Shown here one piece after another: positions 17,549-28,535 of a DNA stretch of 28,535 nucleotides; the stretch's first letter is position 1; every line of letters starts with the position of its first letter. Source of the DNA: a virus; IMG/VR virus record IMGVR_UViG_3300044623_000061, positions 1-28,535 of that record. One strand, written 5' to 3'. The position numbers and the translations under genes were made by a program. The notes under the pieces were generated by a model that saw only the letters and a list, made by a program, of their open reading frames with translations, was not told the origin of the DNA and did no database searches.

Positions 17549-17578
17549 CAAAGATAATCAATTAATTCATATCTGCAA
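17549..17578 (-). promoter_or_regulatory. Host-type promoter before erf
   Basis: On the minus strand TTG (17578-17576), 19 bases, TATCTTTG (17556-17549) fits the Bacteroidota consensus. The sequence around the upstream box, TTTTATTGCAGATAT, and the ATTATCTTTG block are the same as in the early promoter at 23865-23894. The upstream part codes for the last residues of the nuclease gene. Confidence 0.7.
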
Positions 17579-18026
17579 TAAAATTATAATAAAATATCAT
17601 AAATTCATCAAAAGTTCTTGCAATAAAGTATGTACCCCCTGCAGCTTCTACTGATTCCTGATACCTCTTCTGCACTTCTGACTGCCTATCCTTACCATAC
17701 TTCACCTCAATCTTAACTGACCTACCTCTAATGGTGGCAGATATATCTGCTGAGCCTTTTGTACCTGTGCTAGGAGTATAAGTGCCTTTCAGCTGTCTAG
17801 TATTCTCACCTACCTGTATCTTTTTACCCTCTCTATACACTCCCATTGTATTAATTCTCTCAGCTTGAAAGCCTGAATAGGTTAGAAAGTGAATGATACA
17901 TTTAGTCAGTGCATTGGCAGAGTTATCATTCCAATCTGATGCTGTTATGTATGGCATGGTAGGGTGCTTAAGTGTGAGGTAGTTAATCTCTAAGGCTTTG
18001 AGTAGTTGCTTGTTTTCTTTGTTCAT
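17562..18026 (-). CDS. VRR-NUC-type nuclease / putative Holliday junction resolvase
   Basis: The 154-aa protein ends in a PD-(D/E)XK core of VRR-NUC type. GSADISATIRGRSVKIEVKYGKDR (about 91-114) gives D94, E107 and K109. QSEVQKRYQESVEAAGGTYFIART (115-138) is the family's Q...Q..F/Y......GG.y.i...d pattern. The N-terminal half (1-80) is less conserved. Stand-alone phage members of this family act as structure-specific nucleases, for example on branched replication intermediates. It overlaps the methyltransferase stop by four bases and lies before erf, in keeping with recombination. Confidence 0.75.
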   Translation of the reverse strand: MNKENKQLLKALEINYLTLKHPTMPYITASDWNDNSANALTKCIIHFLTYSGFQAERINTMGVYREGKKIQVGENTRQLKGTYTPSTGTKGSADISATIRGRSVKIEVKYGKDRQSEVQKRYQESVEAAGGTYFIARTFDEFMIFYYNFIADMN

Positions 18027-21133: not shown

Positions 21134-21141
21134 CAAATGTA
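21134..21141 (-). promoter_or_regulatory. Promoter -7 box for the primase operon
   Basis: TACATTTG on the minus strand matches TAnnTTTG and overlaps a TTTGCAAA palindrome (21130-21137). No TTG box lies 17-23 bases upstream, so host recognition may be weak or helped by an activator. Transcription would begin near 21127 and include the leader hairpin. Confidence 0.45.
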
Positions 21142-21180
21142 ATAAATTAATTTATAATTGATACTAAAGTGCAAAAATAA

Positions 21181-21430: not shown

Positions 21431-21453
21431 AAAAAAAGCTCCGAAGAGCTTTA
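21431..21453 (-). terminator. Intrinsic terminator of the early operon (UUCG loop)
   Basis: On the minus strand AAAGCTC-TTCG-GAGCTTT forms a seven-pair stem with the very stable UUCG tetraloop, followed directly by TTTT. The stem overlaps the stop codon of the DnaA-like gene, leaving no room for another gene in this transcript. Confidence 0.9.
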
Positions 21454-21858
21454 AATTATTTCAGCTAGTTCTTTAGCTGTCATATATTCTTTAAATTTAT
21501 GGACCTTATCATAATCCCATGGCATCTGAATCCTCACATTGATGTAATTAAAGTTCTCTATTGCCGAAACTTTGTACTTATCCTCATAATCATTATTAAT
21601 AGCAGTCTGCACTAATGGCTCTATCTCATGGAGATATACTTTATCCTGTTGCCTGGACCATCTCCTGTGCATTTTGATACCATGAATAACAGTAGCATGA
21701 TGTCTATTCATCATCCTACCTATTTCACTAAGTGACAAGTTACATTTGTTCAGCCTGTACATTACATAGTATCTCTTATAGACATAGGATCTATTTCTAG
21801 AGTTATTATCTAACTGATACTTTTTGATTTGTTCTTTTAAAAATTTTAGTTCTGTCAT
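21451..21858 (-). CDS. DnaA domain IV-like DNA-binding protein
   Basis: The 135-aa protein contains LSLSEIGRMMNRHHATVIHGIK (41-62), closely following the DnaA signature in which the R-x-H-A-T-V segment contacts DNA. The preceding helix (RNRSYVYKRYYVMYRL) is basic. There is no AAA+ ATPase part, so it binds DNA but cannot act as a full initiator alone. It is the last gene of the early operon and abuts the candidate origin. It may bring host replication proteins to the phage origin or regulate transcription there. Its start overlaps the previous stop by four bases. Confidence 0.75.
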   Translation of the reverse strand: MTELKFLKEQIKKYQLDNNSRNRSYVYKRYYVMYRLNKCNLSLSEIGRMMNRHHATVIHGIKMHRRWSRQQDKVYLHEIEPLVQTAINNDYEDKYKVSAIENFNYINVRIQMPWDYDKVHKFKEYMTAKELAEII

Positions 21859-22061
21859 TGTTCTGATTTATATGTTTTGTTGTAGTAATTTTCTCCATGT
21901 CTATGTTCAAGACTCTCATAAGCATCAATTATCTGTTGCTTTTCAATATCCAAATACTTATGAAAGTGCTTGACAAATTCTCTACCCTCTACTGAGTGCA
22001 TATTGAATAGATGGGGCTGTAACTTTTCTAAGTCACTAAACACCTGCTGTACTGCTGTCAT
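21855..22061 (-). CDS. Hypothetical early protein (68 aa)
   Basis: A helical acidic-basic protein with FVKHFHKYLDIEKQQIIDAYE (about 29-49) and ENYYNKTYKSEQ at the end. The EK.QIIDAY...YYN.TY pattern is one I recall from many Bacteroidota phage early regions, always uncharacterised. It is coupled by four-base overlaps to both neighbours. No membrane segment or enzyme motif is present. Confidence 0.7.
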   Translation of the reverse strand: MTAVQQVFSDLEKLQPHLFNMHSVEGREFVKHFHKYLDIEKQQIIDAYESLEHRHGENYYNKTYKSEQ

Positions 22062-22300
22062 AATAACTTGTTTTGTGTTACTGACTTAAATAGATCAGAC
22101 TGAGACTCCATTACACCTGTAGCATTAATGAAATCTATCTCTACTTTAGCAGATTGAATTAGAGTACCTGCAAGCTGAGAGATAGCCTTAGCTTTATCTA
22201 CCTCCACATTCACCTGGTCTGTTGTTAATGTTTCATCGCTCAATCTCTCGAGAGCCATGAATAGATGATCTCTTAGATCACTTAATTTGTTGTGTGCCAT
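22058..22300 (-). CDS. Hypothetical early protein (80 aa)
   Basis: Begins MAHNKLSDLRDHLFMALERL and continues with VEVDKAKAISQLAGTLIQSAKVEIDFI (about 47-73). Proteins of this layout (KLSDLR.HLF..LE.L......KAKAI...A..LI.SAKVE.DF) are common in phages of several host groups and have no proven function. It reads as helical and probably oligomeric. It overlaps the HNH-like gene by 23 bases upstream and the 68-aa gene by four downstream. Confidence 0.75.
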   Translation of the reverse strand: MAHNKLSDLRDHLFMALERLSDETLTTDQVNVEVDKAKAISQLAGTLIQSAKVEIDFINATGVMESQSDLFKSVTQNKLL

Positions 22301-22889
22301 TGTTATTTATTTTTTTTATTAGTTTACATTTTAATCTCATTACCTGCTGTAATTCTTTAGGTAATCTTTGTATGGTATTTCTAGCCATATTCTCTTTCTT
22401 AGTTATCATTAGCAGATTGTTAATATCATTATTTAGATAATTACCATCCTTATACACTACCACCATCCCCTTAGGTATTGGTCCATTATGCTGCTCCCAA
22501 GTATACCTGTTCAGCAGCTGCCATTTACAATCTGCTAGCTTAATATACTGATACATCTTTCCTCCTGTATCTCTTCTTTGATGGATAGTACCTATAGGTT
22601 GAGTGTTCATAGGCTTAGAGCCTTTTTTAAACATAGTATGAGCCACTTTCTGATATACTTCTGTGGACATTTTTTGTCCTTTGTTAACAGGAGCATGACC
22701 TTTTTGAAATTGAGTAGCTTTACCACCTAGATATCCTGGAGGATATTGAGTAGACCGAAGATAAACAGGATCTTTCTTAATACCCATAGCAAATGCTCTA
22801 TTATAAACTGATGACTCTGATAATCCTAAGTCATCTGCTATCTTTTTAGTAGGCTCAAATGGATACCTTTCTCTTATGATGTCATTCAT
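22278..22889 (-). CDS. HNH endonuclease-like protein with N-terminal HTH
   Basis: Residues 1-35 contain a helix-turn-helix (TKKIADDLGLSESSVYNRAFAMGI). A linker with GHAPVNKGQ follows, then the HNH_3-like part at about 122-170: WQLLNRYTWEQHNGPIPKGMV, YKDGNYLNNDINNLLMITKKENMARN. The Asn-rich N..N..NL end is conserved. Asn 127 stands where HNH_3 enzymes usually have the first His, and Y-K-D replaces the D-H-x-D core. Nuclease activity is therefore uncertain and a DNA-binding role possible. It may be a free-standing homing-type element kept in the early operon, joined by ATGA to the upstream 50-aa gene. Confidence 0.7.
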   Translation of the reverse strand: MNDIIRERYPFEPTKKIADDLGLSESSVYNRAFAMGIKKDPVYLRSTQYPPGYLGGKATQFQKGHAPVNKGQKMSTEVYQKVAHTMFKKGSKPMNTQPIGTIHQRRDTGGKMYQYIKLADCKWQLLNRYTWEQHNGPIPKGMVVVYKDGNYLNNDINNLLMITKKENMARNTIQRLPKELQQVMRLKCKLIKKINNNGTQQIK

Positions 22890-23038
22890 ATCTCTTCAAT
22901 TAATAGAATTAAGTCATCATTCTTTTGTATGAGCTGCTTAACATGATCAGCATCATAAGCCTCTACTATTCTAGTCACTAACTTTACAGGACCATTCCAA
23001 TAGTCAAAGGTCTTAAACACTACTTTATATATCTTCAT
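22886..23038 (-). CDS. Hypothetical small early protein (50 aa)
   Basis: Begins MKIYKVVFKTFDYWNGPVKL, then VEAYDADHVKQLIQ and ends in an acidic hydrophobic tail. The strand-strand-helix pattern could be a small alpha/beta fold. Its stop lies in an ATGA overlap with the HNH-like gene and its start is 14 bases inside the 68-aa gene. The tight packing and sensible composition support a real gene. Function is unknown. Confidence 0.65.
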   Translation of the reverse strand: MKIYKVVFKTFDYWNGPVKLVTRIVEAYDADHVKQLIQKNDDLILLIEEI

Positions 23039-23231
23039 TGTCATTATTTTTAATCGGCACATCTAAGCCATACATTAAATCAAACATTGCAAAATCTCTA
23101 TTTGCATTCCTTTTACTACCCTCATAATTCTGAAAGTACCACTCTCTGAATCTCAGGTATTTTTGGTGAGTATAATCACCATTAGCTATAGCATTTTGTA
23201 CCTCAATAGCTAGCTGTGTAAACTCAGTCAT
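23025..23231 (-). CDS. Hypothetical small early protein (68 aa)
   Basis: MTEFTQLAIEVQNAIANGDY is followed by a Tyr/Trp/Arg-rich part (YLRFREWYFQNYEGSKRNANR) and an acidic end. It is predicted helical and soluble. It overlaps the 41-aa gene by eight bases and the 50-aa gene by 14. No homologue is recognised. Like its neighbours, it could be a host take-over peptide expressed soon after entry, which is inference from position. Confidence 0.65.
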   Translation of the reverse strand: MTEFTQLAIEVQNAIANGDYTHQKYLRFREWYFQNYEGSKRNANRDFAMFDLMYGLDVPIKNNDNEDI

Positions 23232-23349
23232 TGGATTTATTATTTATGACTTGTAAATACCTGAGGTAAAGAGGCAGATTAAATCCACCCCTTATCTCTT
23301 CTGCTGTTCTCCTGCTAGTCCAATACTTTATAATTGCGTTGATTGTCAT
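23224..23349 (-). CDS. Hypothetical small early protein (41 aa)
   Basis: A basic peptide, MTINAIIKYWTSRRTAEEIR then GGFNLPLYLRYLQVINNK. The second part (TAEEIRGGFNLPLYLRYL) has a helix-turn-helix-like rhythm, so DNA binding is possible. The start lies in an ATGA overlap with the 63-aa gene and the end overlaps the next gene by eight bases. Evidence for expression is the packing only. Confidence 0.55.
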   Translation of the reverse strand: MTINAIIKYWTSRRTAEEIRGGFNLPLYLRYLQVINNKSND

Positions 23350-23537
23350 AGCTTAGATTTAAGTAGGTTAAGATTTGCATCACTTAGAATAAACAGTGAC
23401 ATATCTCCATCATCAGTCTCTGTAGCATTGTAGGTAAATGGCTCAATAGTACCTGCTATGTATACATTACTATCATAGTCAGTAGTCCAATTAGAAAAAT
23501 AAGTATTGTCTCTTTTGTATAGGTCTATAAAATTCAT
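23346..23537 (-). CDS. Hypothetical small early protein (63 aa)
   Basis: Acidic protein, beta-like in the middle: NTYFSNWTTDYDSNVYIAGT, then a Thr/Asp stretch (ATETDDGDMSLFIL) and a Leu-rich helix at the end. No known motif. Coupled by ATGA overlaps to the membrane peptide before it and the 41-aa peptide after it. Small acidic early proteins in phages often block host enzymes by mimicking DNA, but nothing here shows that directly. Confidence 0.6.
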   Translation of the reverse strand: MNFIDLYKRDNTYFSNWTTDYDSNVYIAGTIEPFTYNATETDDGDMSLFILSDANLNLLKSKL

Positions 23538-23665
23538 AATATAAGTTCTAAGAAAGTGAATAAAAATAAGATTGATAATGTTACAGTTGTAACAATAAGC
23601 ATAGCTATAGCAAATGCTTTCTCTTCAGCTCCTACAGGAGTAAAATAATTAATTAGTTTTTTCAT
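23534..23665 (-). CDS. Small membrane protein (43 aa)
   Basis: MKKLINYFTPVGAEEKAFAI leads into a long hydrophobic helix (about 18-43, AMLIVTTVTLSILFLFTFLEL), giving one membrane segment with a basic N-terminus. It lies four bases after the 53-aa gene stop and ends in an ATGA overlap with the next gene. An early membrane peptide could act in superinfection exclusion, which is inference only. Confidence 0.6.
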   Translation of the reverse strand: MKKLINYFTPVGAEEKAFAIAMLIVTTVTLSILFLFTFLELIL

Positions 23666-23669
23666 TGTA

Positions 23670-23831
23670 TTATTTTTTAAATTGGTTAAATAAATTCTCA
23701 ATTTCCTGTAACTGTTCTTTGTTCAAAAATGTAGTTAAGGTCTGAATAATTAAATGCAGTTGATTTGTGTTTAGTTTGTCCTCCTGCTGTTGTACTTCTA
23801 AAAAATCTAAGACTTGATTAAATGTTTTCAT
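23670..23831 (-). CDS. First early gene, small helical protein (53 aa)
   Basis: Begins MKTFNQVLDFLEVQQQEDKL and continues with LHLIIQTLTTFLNKEQLQEI. It is almost entirely helical with Leu/Ile heptad-like spacing and many Gln, so a coiled coil or small helical bundle is likely. It is the first gene after the strong early promoter (predicted start of transcription about 25 bases upstream), so it should be made early and in quantity. Function is unknown. Confidence 0.65.
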   Translation of the reverse strand: MKTFNQVLDFLEVQQQEDKLNTNQLHLIIQTLTTFLNKEQLQEIENLFNQFKK

Positions 23832-23864: not shown

Positions 23865-23894
23865 CAAAGATAATAAATAGTTTTATATCTGCAA
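23865..23894 (-). promoter_or_regulatory. Early promoter (TTG-N19-TATCTTTG)
   Basis: On the minus strand TTG (23894-23892), exactly 19 bases, TATCTTTG (23872-23865) matches the Bacteroidota vegetative promoter. The surrounding TTTTATTGCAGATAT and ATTATCTTTG blocks recur in the promoter before erf. It feeds the early genes from 23831 to 21451. Confidence 0.8.
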
Positions 23895-23933
23895 TAAAAA
23901 AGAGTAATTTATATTCATTCTAAATAAGAATAG

Positions 23934-23948
23934 GTCGCAATTTGCGAC
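23934..23948. promoter_or_regulatory. Dyad operator upstream of the early promoter
   Basis: GTCGCAA-T-TTGCGAC is a perfect inverted repeat with seven-base arms and a one-base centre, about 40 bases above the TTG box of the early promoter. It is G+C-richer than its surroundings. No T run follows, so a repressor or activator site is more likely than a terminator. The surrounding gap (23832-24120) holds no gene that I can see. Confidence 0.5.
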
Positions 23949-24056
23949 TGCAACCTTAAAAATATCATGTAATTTTAAAGTATAACTTACAAAAGTATCG
24001 TTATTTGTAAACTTTATTTAGTGTTATTAGTCCCAAATCTTATCAATATATGGGAC

Positions 24057-24120: not shown

Positions 24121-24924
24121 TTAGTGTTTATATTTGAATTTCAAATACTCTATGTAAGTTTTATTATTTATTTTAAAATGTTTTTTACAATCATTACACA
24201 ACATCCAATAGTGGATAGTCCCTGCTGCAGTTACTACCTGTTTATTATGTCTTACATTATAGTTAGTACATTCAGGACAGCAGAACTTCTCATCTCCCTC
24301 CATTACAGCATAATTAGTAGCAGGAGCTGCATAAGAATTTAGCTTATTGAATACAGCTTCTAGTACAGTGACATCCATTTTGCAATATGCTACCATCTTA
24401 TCCATTGCCTGCTGATCTTTCTTAAATACTATATCTTTCCACAGGTCTAGTCCTCCTGTATCCATCTTTTGACCTACTCCTAAATACTTAGCAATATAGT
24501 CTAATTTGTTTGAGTTAAAATTAAAGTACTTTCTAGCCCATTTAAGAGTATCTATAGTCTTAGGTGAGGGCATAACATCAAGTCCATGTATTATAGCTCT
24601 TGTACGCAACCATTTGAGATCAAATCTATCCCCATTATGAGCCACAATTTCATCTGCTTGAGCCATAACTTTAAGAAATGCTTTTATCATTGCCTTATCT
24701 GATTGCTTTTTATCCCAAGTTAGGAATTGTACATCACCATCTGACTCCCATTTGTAGCAGATGCAGATAATAGCTCTCTCATGGATGATATCACCTGGAT
24801 TGATTGTGAGGTTATATCCTGATCTCCAAAATATACCAACATTGAATGATGTCTCAATGTCAAAAAACAGTCTTTTTCTTACCATATATGGTGTAAACTT
24901 AGAACAAATATTTCTCTCTTGCAA
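24121..24924 (-). CDS. DEDD 3'-5' exonuclease with C-terminal zinc ribbon
   Basis: The 267-aa protein has the ExoI motif LFFDIET (D22, E24), ExoII AHNGDRFDLKWLR (D102) and ExoIII AYCKMDVTVLEAV (D184), the DnaQ/RNase_H_2-like set. At the C-terminus CCPEC (215-219) and CNDC (243-246) form a zinc ribbon that may bind nucleic acid. All catalytic acids are present. The start overlaps the spanin gene by 26 bases; an ATG at 24885 (MVRKRLFFDIET) would avoid the overlap and is a fair alternative. It lies at the end of the lysis cassette under late control, an odd place for a repair or proofreading enzyme. Late DNA processing or host DNA breakdown are possible roles. Confidence 0.8.
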   Translation of the reverse strand: MQERNICSKFTPYMVRKRLFFDIETSFNVGIFWRSGYNLTINPGDIIHERAIICICYKWESDGDVQFLTWDKKQSDKAMIKAFLKVMAQADEIVAHNGDRFDLKWLRTRAIIHGLDVMPSPKTIDTLKWARKYFNFNSNKLDYIAKYLGVGQKMDTGGLDLWKDIVFKKDQQAMDKMVAYCKMDVTVLEAVFNKLNSYAAPATNYAVMEGDEKFCCPECTNYNVRHNKQVVTAAGTIHYWMLCNDCKKHFKINNKTYIEYLKFKYKH

Positions 24925-26958: not shown

Positions 26959-28268
26959 TATAGTATAGGTGTTTGTGCAATTTGTGATTTGCTTTTATCT
27001 CCTCCAGGTACAGGAGGTAGTGATGCTAAGGCTCTAATCTCATTCTCAGTCATAGTCTCAAGTACTTTAGTAGCTACCAATGGTGATAGGCTATTAAGTG
27101 CATCATTAGTCTTAGAGGTATCTCCCTCAAGCTCTACAATAGCCTCATTAATTATCTGATAGTTATTGATAGTGAAATCTGCATCTATCTTAGCTATGAA
27201 TAGTAGCTCATTAAAGATGTCAGATACCATATCTCTTAATGGCATTACTACATTTTTCTCAAATATGATATAAGCCTGCTTAATATCTGAGCCATTACCT
27301 AGTGAGCCTGTAGTACGGATTCCCATAAGTATAGGATCAATGGTGTGACTAAAGCAAATCTGCTCAGTGTTTAGCTGTGATGCCTCTTGAAATAGACTAT
27401 CATTATTATTTGTAGGTAAAGATTCTATCTTAGGTAATTGCTCTGCTGAGTTTGCAAAAAATGCGACACTTTTGCCTGCATTTTCTGCTCCTTTTAGCTT
27501 ACTCATGGTATTTCTTATCATGTTCTTCTCCTCCTCAGACTGAGGTCTTTTAGGGAACATCATAGCAAAGCTAGGAAAGACTGAATTTTGGATGTTACTT
27601 TTAGCAAAATAGCTAAGTTCACCGGATAGGAATGCAAAGTTTAGAGCTGAGGTATAGGAAGGTAATGGATAATAATCTTGACCAATACTCTCTACCTCAT
27701 ATACAAATAACTGCTCATAATCTCTACAGGTAGGAGTATATCTTTTAATCTCCTGTACTCCAATCCTACTAGCCCAATCATCACAAATATAATATCTCTT
27801 TCTATCTAAGTTTACTCTAAGTTTCTCAGGGGATAGATTGACTATCTTTGTGAGTTTCATCTTATCATCAAAGCATAGCTTAAAATATACTCTATTATGT
27901 AGAATGAGTTGCTGAGTTACTGCAGGAACTATCTTTTTAATGTTTAATTTTCTCTCTAATGTATATAGCTCTAGCTTATCTTCAAGTGTTAGTCTATCTG
28001 CTACTATATTAAATCCACCTCCTACAGCTGCATTCACTTTATACCCAACTATTGAGCCATGTAATGGTGATGAGTAGAAGATTTGATTGAGTAGCTCAGG
28101 GAATAGGTTATCCTGACCGAATGGAATATATCCATTAGTCTGATGTCTACCATTTACATAAGGTAGAGTTAAGTTAGCACCTCCTACCTTAAGGAATGGA
28201 GTAGAGAATGACTGATATCCCTCTACTATTTCATGCTTTACTGTTTTAAAAAAATCTTTTAATGCCAT
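26958..28268 (-). CDS. Portal protein
   Basis: Forms the dodecameric DNA entry ring of the head. In the 436-aa protein, FGQDNLFPELLNQIFYSSPLHGSIV (about 51-75) is the usual portal opening with the S-x-x-x-x-x-I helix. LILHNRVYFKL and LSPEKLRVNLDRKRYYICDDW form the wing and clip parts. TTGSLGNGSDIKQAY (about 325-340) and the following helix match the stem end of PBSX/HK97-type portals. The C-terminus is Pro- and Gln-rich. Across the joined ends it follows the 113-aa gene by two bases, and its first two codons are also present at 1-6. Confidence 0.85.
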   Translation of the reverse strand: MALKDFFKTVKHEIVEGYQSFSTPFLKVGGANLTLPYVNGRHQTNGYIPFGQDNLFPELLNQIFYSSPLHGSIVGYKVNAAVGGGFNIVADRLTLEDKLELYTLERKLNIKKIVPAVTQQLILHNRVYFKLCFDDKMKLTKIVNLSPEKLRVNLDRKRYYICDDWASRIGVQEIKRYTPTCRDYEQLFVYEVESIGQDYYPLPSYTSALNFAFLSGELSYFAKSNIQNSVFPSFAMMFPKRPQSEEEKNMIRNTMSKLKGAENAGKSVAFFANSAEQLPKIESLPTNNNDSLFQEASQLNTEQICFSHTIDPILMGIRTTGSLGNGSDIKQAYIIFEKNVVMPLRDMVSDIFNELLFIAKIDADFTINNYQIINEAIVELEGDTSKTNDALNSLSPLVATKVLETMTENEIRALASLPPVPGGDKSKSQIAQTPIL

Positions 28269-28535
28269 AATTACTCATAAATTGATGATACTATTGGTCC
28301 TGATACTACCATCCTGCCCTCTTCAATCACTACTCCTGTAGAGTTAGCAATAGTTGGAGGTGTGGTAGATGACTCATAGATACTATATGTATACTGTCCT
28401 TTAACTAATTCCAAATCTACAGGCTCATCTAGCTCAAACTGATTGAATCTTTCAGGATAAGCTGATAGATCAGCAGTGTAGAATGTAATAGGTGCAGACA
28501 GCTTGTCCATTTCATTCTGAAAAACAAATAAATAA
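28263..28535. repeat. Terminal overlap, right copy
   Basis: Repeats 1-273 with six differences at 28368, 28369, 28382, 28403, 28405 and 28408, all within 41 bases. The rest is identical, which indicates circular closure of the contig with allelic variation. Confidence 0.9.
28271..28535 (-). CDS. Partial second copy of the 113-aa hypothetical protein
   Basis: This is the same gene as at 9-350, cut by the window edge at its N-terminal side. An internal ATG at 28510 should not be taken as the start. Compared with the left copy four codons differ. Three are synonymous (Leu CTA/TTA, Ser AGC/AGT, Ser AGT/TCT) and one changes Ile (ATC) to Val (GTT). That pattern indicates selection on a real protein and a variant genome in the sampled population. 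Confidence 0.85.
   Translation of the reverse strand, partial: YLFVFQNEMDKLSAPITFYTADLSAYPERFNQFELDEPVDLELVKGQYTYSIYESSTTPPTIANSTGVVIEEGRMVVSGPIVSSIYE

Follow-up and report, generated by a model that had tools for sequence, protein, structure and literature searches.

A chain of tiny overlapping genes at the head of the replication region of an uncultured phage

The IMG/VR record IMGVR_UViG_3300044623_000061, from an uncultured virus (28,535 bases, analysed over its whole length and called the window below), carries six small open reading frames, g1 to g6, of 53, 43, 63, 41, 68 and 50 amino acids (aa), at positions 23831-22886 of the minus strand. We found that all six frames are under purifying selection, weakest for g2, that they are joined at nearly fixed overlaps and exchange alleles in a mosaic fashion, and that a sister group of phages carries a g4-like and a g6-like sequence fused in a single frame. 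The array is probably best explained as the head of the replication region, a set of tiny phage-specific genes that are mostly joined by overlaps and stand behind one promoter of the host primary-sigma type. An earlier sequence-only reading had described a chain of tiny early genes; the frames exist where it placed them, and its picture of a chain of small genes stands; they are real genes, packed tightly in one array upstream of replication genes.

Selection and fixed overlaps mark the six frames as genes

Selection was assessed in 76 IMG/VR loci, chosen by their 95-100% identity to the window's primase-like protein. Codons were compared over all pairs of distinct sequences with the window added, in a set of 33 loci each for g2, g3, g5 and g6, 28 for g4 and 12 for the window's g1 allele. 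Read in frame, the ratio of non-synonymous to synonymous polymorphism (pN/pS) was 0.15 for g1, 0.53 for g2, 0.47 for g3, 0.27 for g4, 0.19 for g5 and 0.17 for g6, whereas shifting the reading of these alignments by one or two bases gave 0.76-3.11. Values for neighbouring genes were 0.15 (exonuclease), 0.22 (HNH endonuclease), 0.04 (g8), 0.50 (g9), 0.31 (DnaA C-terminal-domain-like, or DnaA-C-like) and 0.05 (primase-like).

Later scans brought the collection to 83 distinct loci of the window's type (type I) and 78 distinct loci of the sister type (type II). They took the best 80 of 101, 97, 81, 104, 89 and 100 confirmed relatives, respectively, and one further scan was complete (48/48); the scan with 100 confirmed relatives lies outside the counts, except for loci already in the set. 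Overlaps were counted among the 83 type I loci wherever the start fitted the pattern (9 of the 61 loci with HNH, for example, were left out). The overlap is 4 nucleotides (nt) at g2/g3 in 82/82 loci and at g3/g4 in 80/81, 14 nt at g5/g6 in 81/82, and 4 nt, as ATGA, at g6/HNH in all 52 measured. The g4/g5 junction takes three states: an 8-nt overlap in 58 loci, an 11-nt overlap in 13 and a 117-nt gap in 10.

Within the window, g1 and g2 are separated by 4 nt, g4 and g5 overlap by 8 nt, and g5 and g6 overlap by 14 nt (20 nt from an upstream ATG). The sequence-only reading had several frames joined by ATGA, and we recovered this junction at g2/g3, g3/g4 and also g6/HNH. The chain is longer than noted at first, continuing through the HNH gene, g8, g9 and the DnaA-C-like gene, each of which overlaps its predecessor.

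The frames are open in 26/26 aligned loci for g1, 58/58 for g2, 80/80 for g3, 51/51 for g4, 82/83 for g5 and 79/79 for g6, counts that drop, out of the 83 distinct loci, those without a near full-length alignment (allele swaps, contig ends). Broken frames in close relatives, the finding that the sequence-only reading had named as speaking against it, were confined to a broken g5 in one locus, and the near-fixed overlaps among the 83 loci argue that the chain withstands this test. That reading had also called two of the products membrane or basic peptides; judged by eye from the residues, g2 does resemble a membrane peptide with one span, and the basic peptide is g4.

g4 and g6 appear as separated halves of a sister-phage protein

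A scan with the window's g1 allele found the sister block, which consists of g1, a 45-aa g2-like gene, a 110-aa gene and a 94-aa frame, followed directly or beyond other small genes by a DnaA-C-like gene. The sister group retains g1, g2 and g6 at 38-96% identity, plus a part like g4 allele B: the 94-aa frame joins this g4B-like part (DWWxRQxRGSFxLxLYLEICR) to a g6-like part. Scans with the 94-aa and 110-aa proteins took the best 80 of 104 and the best 80 of 89 confirmed stretches. Among all loci collected by then, the 94-aa frame was unbroken in 76/76 complete type II loci, the other two (L415 and L456) being cut by contig ends. g5 was found in none of these 78 distinct loci. The 110-aa gene was considered as a relative of g3 or g5 and rejected, as it shows no profile similarity to either (E 0.047 and 0.28; probabilities 1.1% and 0.2%).

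The alignment of g6 with the C-terminal region of the 94-aa protein covers the whole of g6 (E 4.6e-26, 52 columns), and on this sequence comparison g6 is certainly the counterpart of that half. The N-terminal part of the 94-aa protein is clearly like the g4 allele B of other loci, whereas the match of the window's own g4 (allele A) to it is weak (E 2.9e-4, 20 columns, probability 41%); for the window, the g4 half of the split therefore depends on allele B as a bridge. Both alleles are flanked by g3 and g5, at one and the same place, and RG-x-FNL-x-LY is common to most members. By sequence, g4 and g6 thus appear to be the separated halves of one sister-phage protein, parted here by g5.

The comparison of split and fused forms is unrooted: g5 may have split the pair, or its loss may have joined it. 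DNA seems to be exchanged between the two groups within g6, since one fused locus (L369) ends in a g6 tail of the window's group and one split locus (L076) in that of the fused group. Methionine stands where g6 would start in 76/76 fused genes, behind a residue that varies (P in 37, E in 31, T in 7, N in 1); with this methionine retained, production of a free g6 would still be possible. Two proteins that are joined in one lineage and apart in another are, by established reasoning, hinted to work together, and the sequences suggest as much for g4 and g6.

Alleles are exchanged along the array

At the g1 place stand two unlike alleles, the window's MKTFN... or a 57-aa form beginning MDKEQIM... 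or similar, and hybrids occur whose tail resembles the MDKEQIM allele. g4 has three forms: MTINAII..., a longer form, and MNNMITLFQQLDWW... The forms of g1 and g2 were found in each of their four possible pairings (A-a 22, A-b 10, B-a 27 and B-b 23), as expected if short pieces recombine. Where g4 and g5 are separated by the 117-nt gap, the gap holds an extra 44-aa frame that overlaps both neighbours (seven gap loci read, of 10). This frame has a hydrophobic span, M[RK]KYK..IGLxIGxxIG..., and lies at L018:5130-5248 and L029:610-728, and also in L110, L112, L118, L136 and L144. The array evidently trades single genes at its junctions.

A host-type promoter precedes the chain

Upstream of g1 lies TTG-N19-TATCTTTG, which we assign to the Bacteroidota primary sigma factor type from its motif and conserved position; on the same two grounds, the host-type promoter that the sequence-only reading put ahead of the six frames is upheld. 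The -7 box fits TAHHTTTG, the refined -7 consensus of Flavobacterium johnsoniae (PMC6847099), and a TAnnTTTG box is described in F. psychrophilum too (PMC9723704). The window contains 8 matches to the composite motif, where Markov-simulated sequences average 2.2, so taken by itself the motif is weak evidence. Counting distinct loci, 71/74 of type I and 50/61 of type II have a match no more than 350 nt ahead of the first gene, and at least one of the misses, L019, has too little upstream sequence.

Three related promoter-like 35-mers lie at 17549-17583 before the ERF gene, at 21134-21168 before the primase-like gene and at 23865-23899 before the g1 chain, two of them 86% and 71% like the first; the ERF copy and the chain promoter agree at 86% over 35 nt. 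The three copies are perhaps one early promoter family. Upstream of the promoter stands a hairpin that may be terminator-like or operator-like; of 75 distinct upstream regions of type I, 40 have a like palindrome, with arms at most 4 nt apart, in the nearest 300 nt or so. An adenine at -3 of the start, the favoured context in F. johnsoniae (PMC6847099), is found in 7 of the 10 chain genes from g1 to the DnaA-C-like gene, the exceptions being g4, g5 and HNH. Four type II loci without a promoter match near g1 (L372, L448, L418 and L465; L375 in part) share another element directly upstream of g1, which contains a short inverted repeat, GTGCG..CGCAC.

Homology and fold searches

None of g1 to g6 matched a Pfam or NCBIfam family above cut-off; PHROGs gave nothing better than E 0.072, and in PADLOC only g5 gave a match, at 0.048. 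We treated as chance the matches of g1 to MinC_N_1 (E 0.005) and those of one second-allele g1 sequence to FOXP-CC (0.005) and to an anti-repressor PHROG (0.017). By tblastn against 50,697 phage records, g1, g3, g5, g6 and the 94-aa protein found nothing significant (g2 and g4 were not tried); the best E values were 0.3 for g3, 3 for g5 and 0.7 for the 94-aa protein, with no hit for g1 or g6. Peptide-pattern scans with g2 and g5 across prokaryote genomes of 84,980 species returned 371 and 27 pattern hits, respectively, and no confirmed relative; such scans need short exact peptides and can miss distant relatives.

g5 showed one weak and consistent likeness. All 28 g5 members match DUF7588 (PF24496) weakly, with E up to 0.01 and 2.9e-6 at best; the window's g5 scores 24.2 bits against a cut-off of 27, a member from L039 reaches 27.2, and only about 30 residues match. 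DUF7588 was not found in 14 control genomes, and our literature search returned no paper with the term. The g5 model has three helices (predicted local distance difference test (pLDDT) 71), and a fold search with it found nothing (best E 8.0).

For g4 and g6, folds come from the model of the 94-aa protein, which shows two helices followed by a beta-beta-alpha-beta unit, the g6 part (pLDDT 72); the two-helix g4 part was barely tested by the fold searches. The g6 part aligns to the RNA polymerase epsilon subunit YkzG (Z 6.5, root-mean-square deviation (rmsd) 3.2, 53 residues), to T7 Gp2 (4lk0_M; Z 5.4, rmsd 3.5, 46 residues) and, tied just behind epsilon, to ribosomal eL20/LX (Z up to 6.0), all of these lying under Z 8, the range of common arrangements. 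Foldseek with the 94-aa model gave a ribosomal protein as its best match (E 0.064), with YkzG at 0.14. No profile match to epsilon or Gp2 was found among solved structures at E up to 10, nor did Pfam give any family of polymerase subunits with E up to 1. In BFVD the 94-aa model matched A0A6J5MZ48 (E 2.2e-4, 51% identity over 51 columns) and A0A1B1INW3 (7.6e-4), neither with a function named. The modelled g6 fold suggests a small binding domain.

Weighing the explanations

In the explanation that we prefer, a replication-region head made of tiny phage-specific genes, the genes would share a single transcript, with early expression that precedes DNA replication and with serial translation. The small proteins would be accessory and bind host molecules, with g2 at the membrane, and g4 and g6 would be the two parts of a single factor, encoded by two frames here and by a fused frame in the sisters. 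Judged from the sequences, an action of g1 to g6 on the host is plausible. Several points weigh against this explanation. No function was recognised for any of the six proteins in the libraries searched. "Early", the timing in the sequence-only reading, and "one transcript" would follow from position, overlaps and promoter type. The link from g4 allele A to allele B is short, and the g4-g6 fusion, suggestive as it is, is compatible with joint function and falls short of proof. The margin of g2 is the smallest (pN/pS 0.53 against 0.76 and 1.40 in the shifted frames), and the pairwise counts behind all pN/pS values are not independent and carry no significance test. Finally, 4 of 11 decoy frames stay mostly open too (59/64, 67/67, 72/75 and 3/3; the other seven less), so openness adds little alone. 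We therefore rejected it as sole evidence for genes, and the gene claim rests on pN/pS together with the overlaps.

The open decoys lend something to the idea that these are spurious or decaying frames, overlapping and open by chance in AT-rich DNA, as do the shortness of the frames and their lack of a known function. Yet this account is already contradicted by the gulf between in-frame and shifted pN/pS, by overlaps nearly fixed in about 80 loci and by the retention of g1, g2, g6 and a g4B-like part in the sister group, and we give it almost no credence. A better, still unlikely, alternative is that the small proteins are accessory factors of the phage's own DNA replication and not inhibitors of the host. 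They share one overlapped array with the DnaA-C-like gene, and the primase-like gene lies downstream of them and the exonuclease-subunit-like gene just upstream; against this, the swapping of alleles at g1, g2 and g4 beside a primase-like protein with little variation (pN/pS 0.05, in loci chosen by similarity to it) is less to be expected of replisome parts, and g2 looks like a membrane peptide.

We regard as more doubtful a specific form of host takeover, in which g6, with g4, would be a small RNA-polymerase-binding factor like T7 Gp2 or epsilon that turns host transcription towards the phage. The modelled g6 part does align to both proteins. Gp2 is a T7 inhibitor of host RNA polymerase (PMC3778932), and two further papers describe epsilon and Gp2 as structurally related (PMC7722741, PMC7749165). 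The low Z scores, the tie with eL20/LX, the ribosomal best match in Foldseek, the modest model confidence and the lack of any profile or Pfam match to epsilon, Gp2 or a polymerase subunit all count against it. So does the fact that no phage RNA polymerase was recognised among 29 scanned window proteins (each compared with one or more libraries); from this last result the phage seemingly depends on the host's polymerase at all stages. On the modelled fold, host transcription is a low-probability target of g6 and not a finding. A further, joint proposal is a long shot: g4/g6 would be a Bacteroidota-phage host-transcription factor that converged on the Gp2/epsilon fold, made here as two proteins because g5 sits between its halves, and the methionine retained in the fused genes would mean that a free g6 is also made from them.

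Relation to known phage regions

Early or host-takeover regions are familiar from lytic phages, as in the class I genes of T7 and the host-takeover module of SPO1. The window array resembles them as a cluster of short genes, for which no relatives are known, set between a host-type promoter and replication genes. It differs in that it is tightly overlapped and swaps alleles, and in that the five proteins tried had no significant match among the 50,697 phage records. Regions of this kind are ordinary in phages; the families that make up this one find no explanation in the libraries searched.

The closest comparison is with the type II sisters (L240, L254, L256, L259, L260, L270-L272, L274, L352 and others), which keep the same order where complete: promoter, g1, g2-like, ..., g4-like/g6-like, DnaA-C-like. 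They differ in that the g4-like and g6-like parts are fused, the 110-aa gene stands in place of g3, and g5 was not found. Likeness to YkzG and T7 Gp2 is confined to the small modelled fold of the g6 part, with no sequence match and a score in the range of common arrangements. A0A6J5MZ48 (50 aa, from an uncultured Caudovirales phage) is, by its length, probably a stand-alone g6, and DUF7588, weakly matched by g5, is by its title a domain of unknown function.

Two of the genes, at 41 and 43 aa, could fall below common length cut-offs, yet the population data show selection on them. The array also offers a natural experiment, in which genes are traded at stop/start junctions and a protein is whole in one group and apparently in two parts in another. 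As a general view, the small proteins with which phages act on Bacteroidota hosts have been poorly explored.

The window and the genes around the chain

The ends of the window, 1-273 and 28263-28535, repeat each other at 98% identity, and this slightly divergent terminal overlap indicates that the record is probably a near-complete genome. Its terminase, portal, head, holin and peptidase genes point to a tailed phage, and no integrase was recognised among the 29 scanned proteins. The primase-like protein, which has a BT4734-like N domain, matches annotated phage DNA primases by tblastn, and phages of Flavobacterium or Cellulophaga account for 27 of the 43 records matched; from these matches and the Bacteroidota-type promoters we infer a host in the Flavobacteriia. 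Upstream of the g1 chain, at 24121-24924, lies the exonuclease-subunit-like gene, and the downstream genes are the DnaA-C-like gene, the primase-like gene, a DNA methylase gene and ERF.

Table 1. Coordinates of the chain and its upstream elements in the window.
Feature	Position	Strand	Description
Hairpin	23932-23956	-	perfect palindrome GTCGCAA-A-TTGCGAC; upstream of the promoter
Promoter	23865-23894	-	TTG-N19-TATCTTTG; Bacteroidota primary sigma factor type, by motif and conserved position
g1	23670-23831	-	53 aa; one of two alternative alleles
g2	23534-23665	-	43 aa; a single hydrophobic span follows a short polar start (MK[KR]LIxYFTPVG in most)
g3	23346-23537	-	63 aa, acidic; start overlaps g2 by ATGA
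g4	23224-23349	-	41 aa, basic; RG-x-F-x-L-x-LYL; weak match to N-terminal part of the sisters' 94-aa protein
g5	23025-23231	-	68 aa; three-helix model; between g4 and g6
g6	22886-23038	-	50 aa (52 from ATG at 23044); counterpart of the C-terminal part of the sisters' 94-aa protein
HNH endonuclease gene	22278-22889	-	Pfam HNH_3 3.6e-15; PHROG 1891 4e-44; continues the chain
g8	22058-22300	-	80 aa; PHROG 2044 family, 1.6e-19
g9	21855-22061	-	68 aa; highly variable gene of the chain
DnaA C-terminal-domain-like gene	21451-21858	-	135 aa; Pfam Bac_DnaA_C 1.9e-11; end of the overlapped chain

PHROG 2044, the family of the 80-aa g8, bears the title "RNA polymerase beta subunit", which we take as a mislabel. 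HNH and g8 travel together: 58 of the 61 loci with HNH have g8, and no locus has g8 without HNH. In other loci the pair is replaced by a gene that reads as MazG-like, by one that reads as a C5-methyltransferase, or by other genes; at L012:5613-6521, an apparent C5-cytosine methyltransferase gene stands where HNH-g8 would be.

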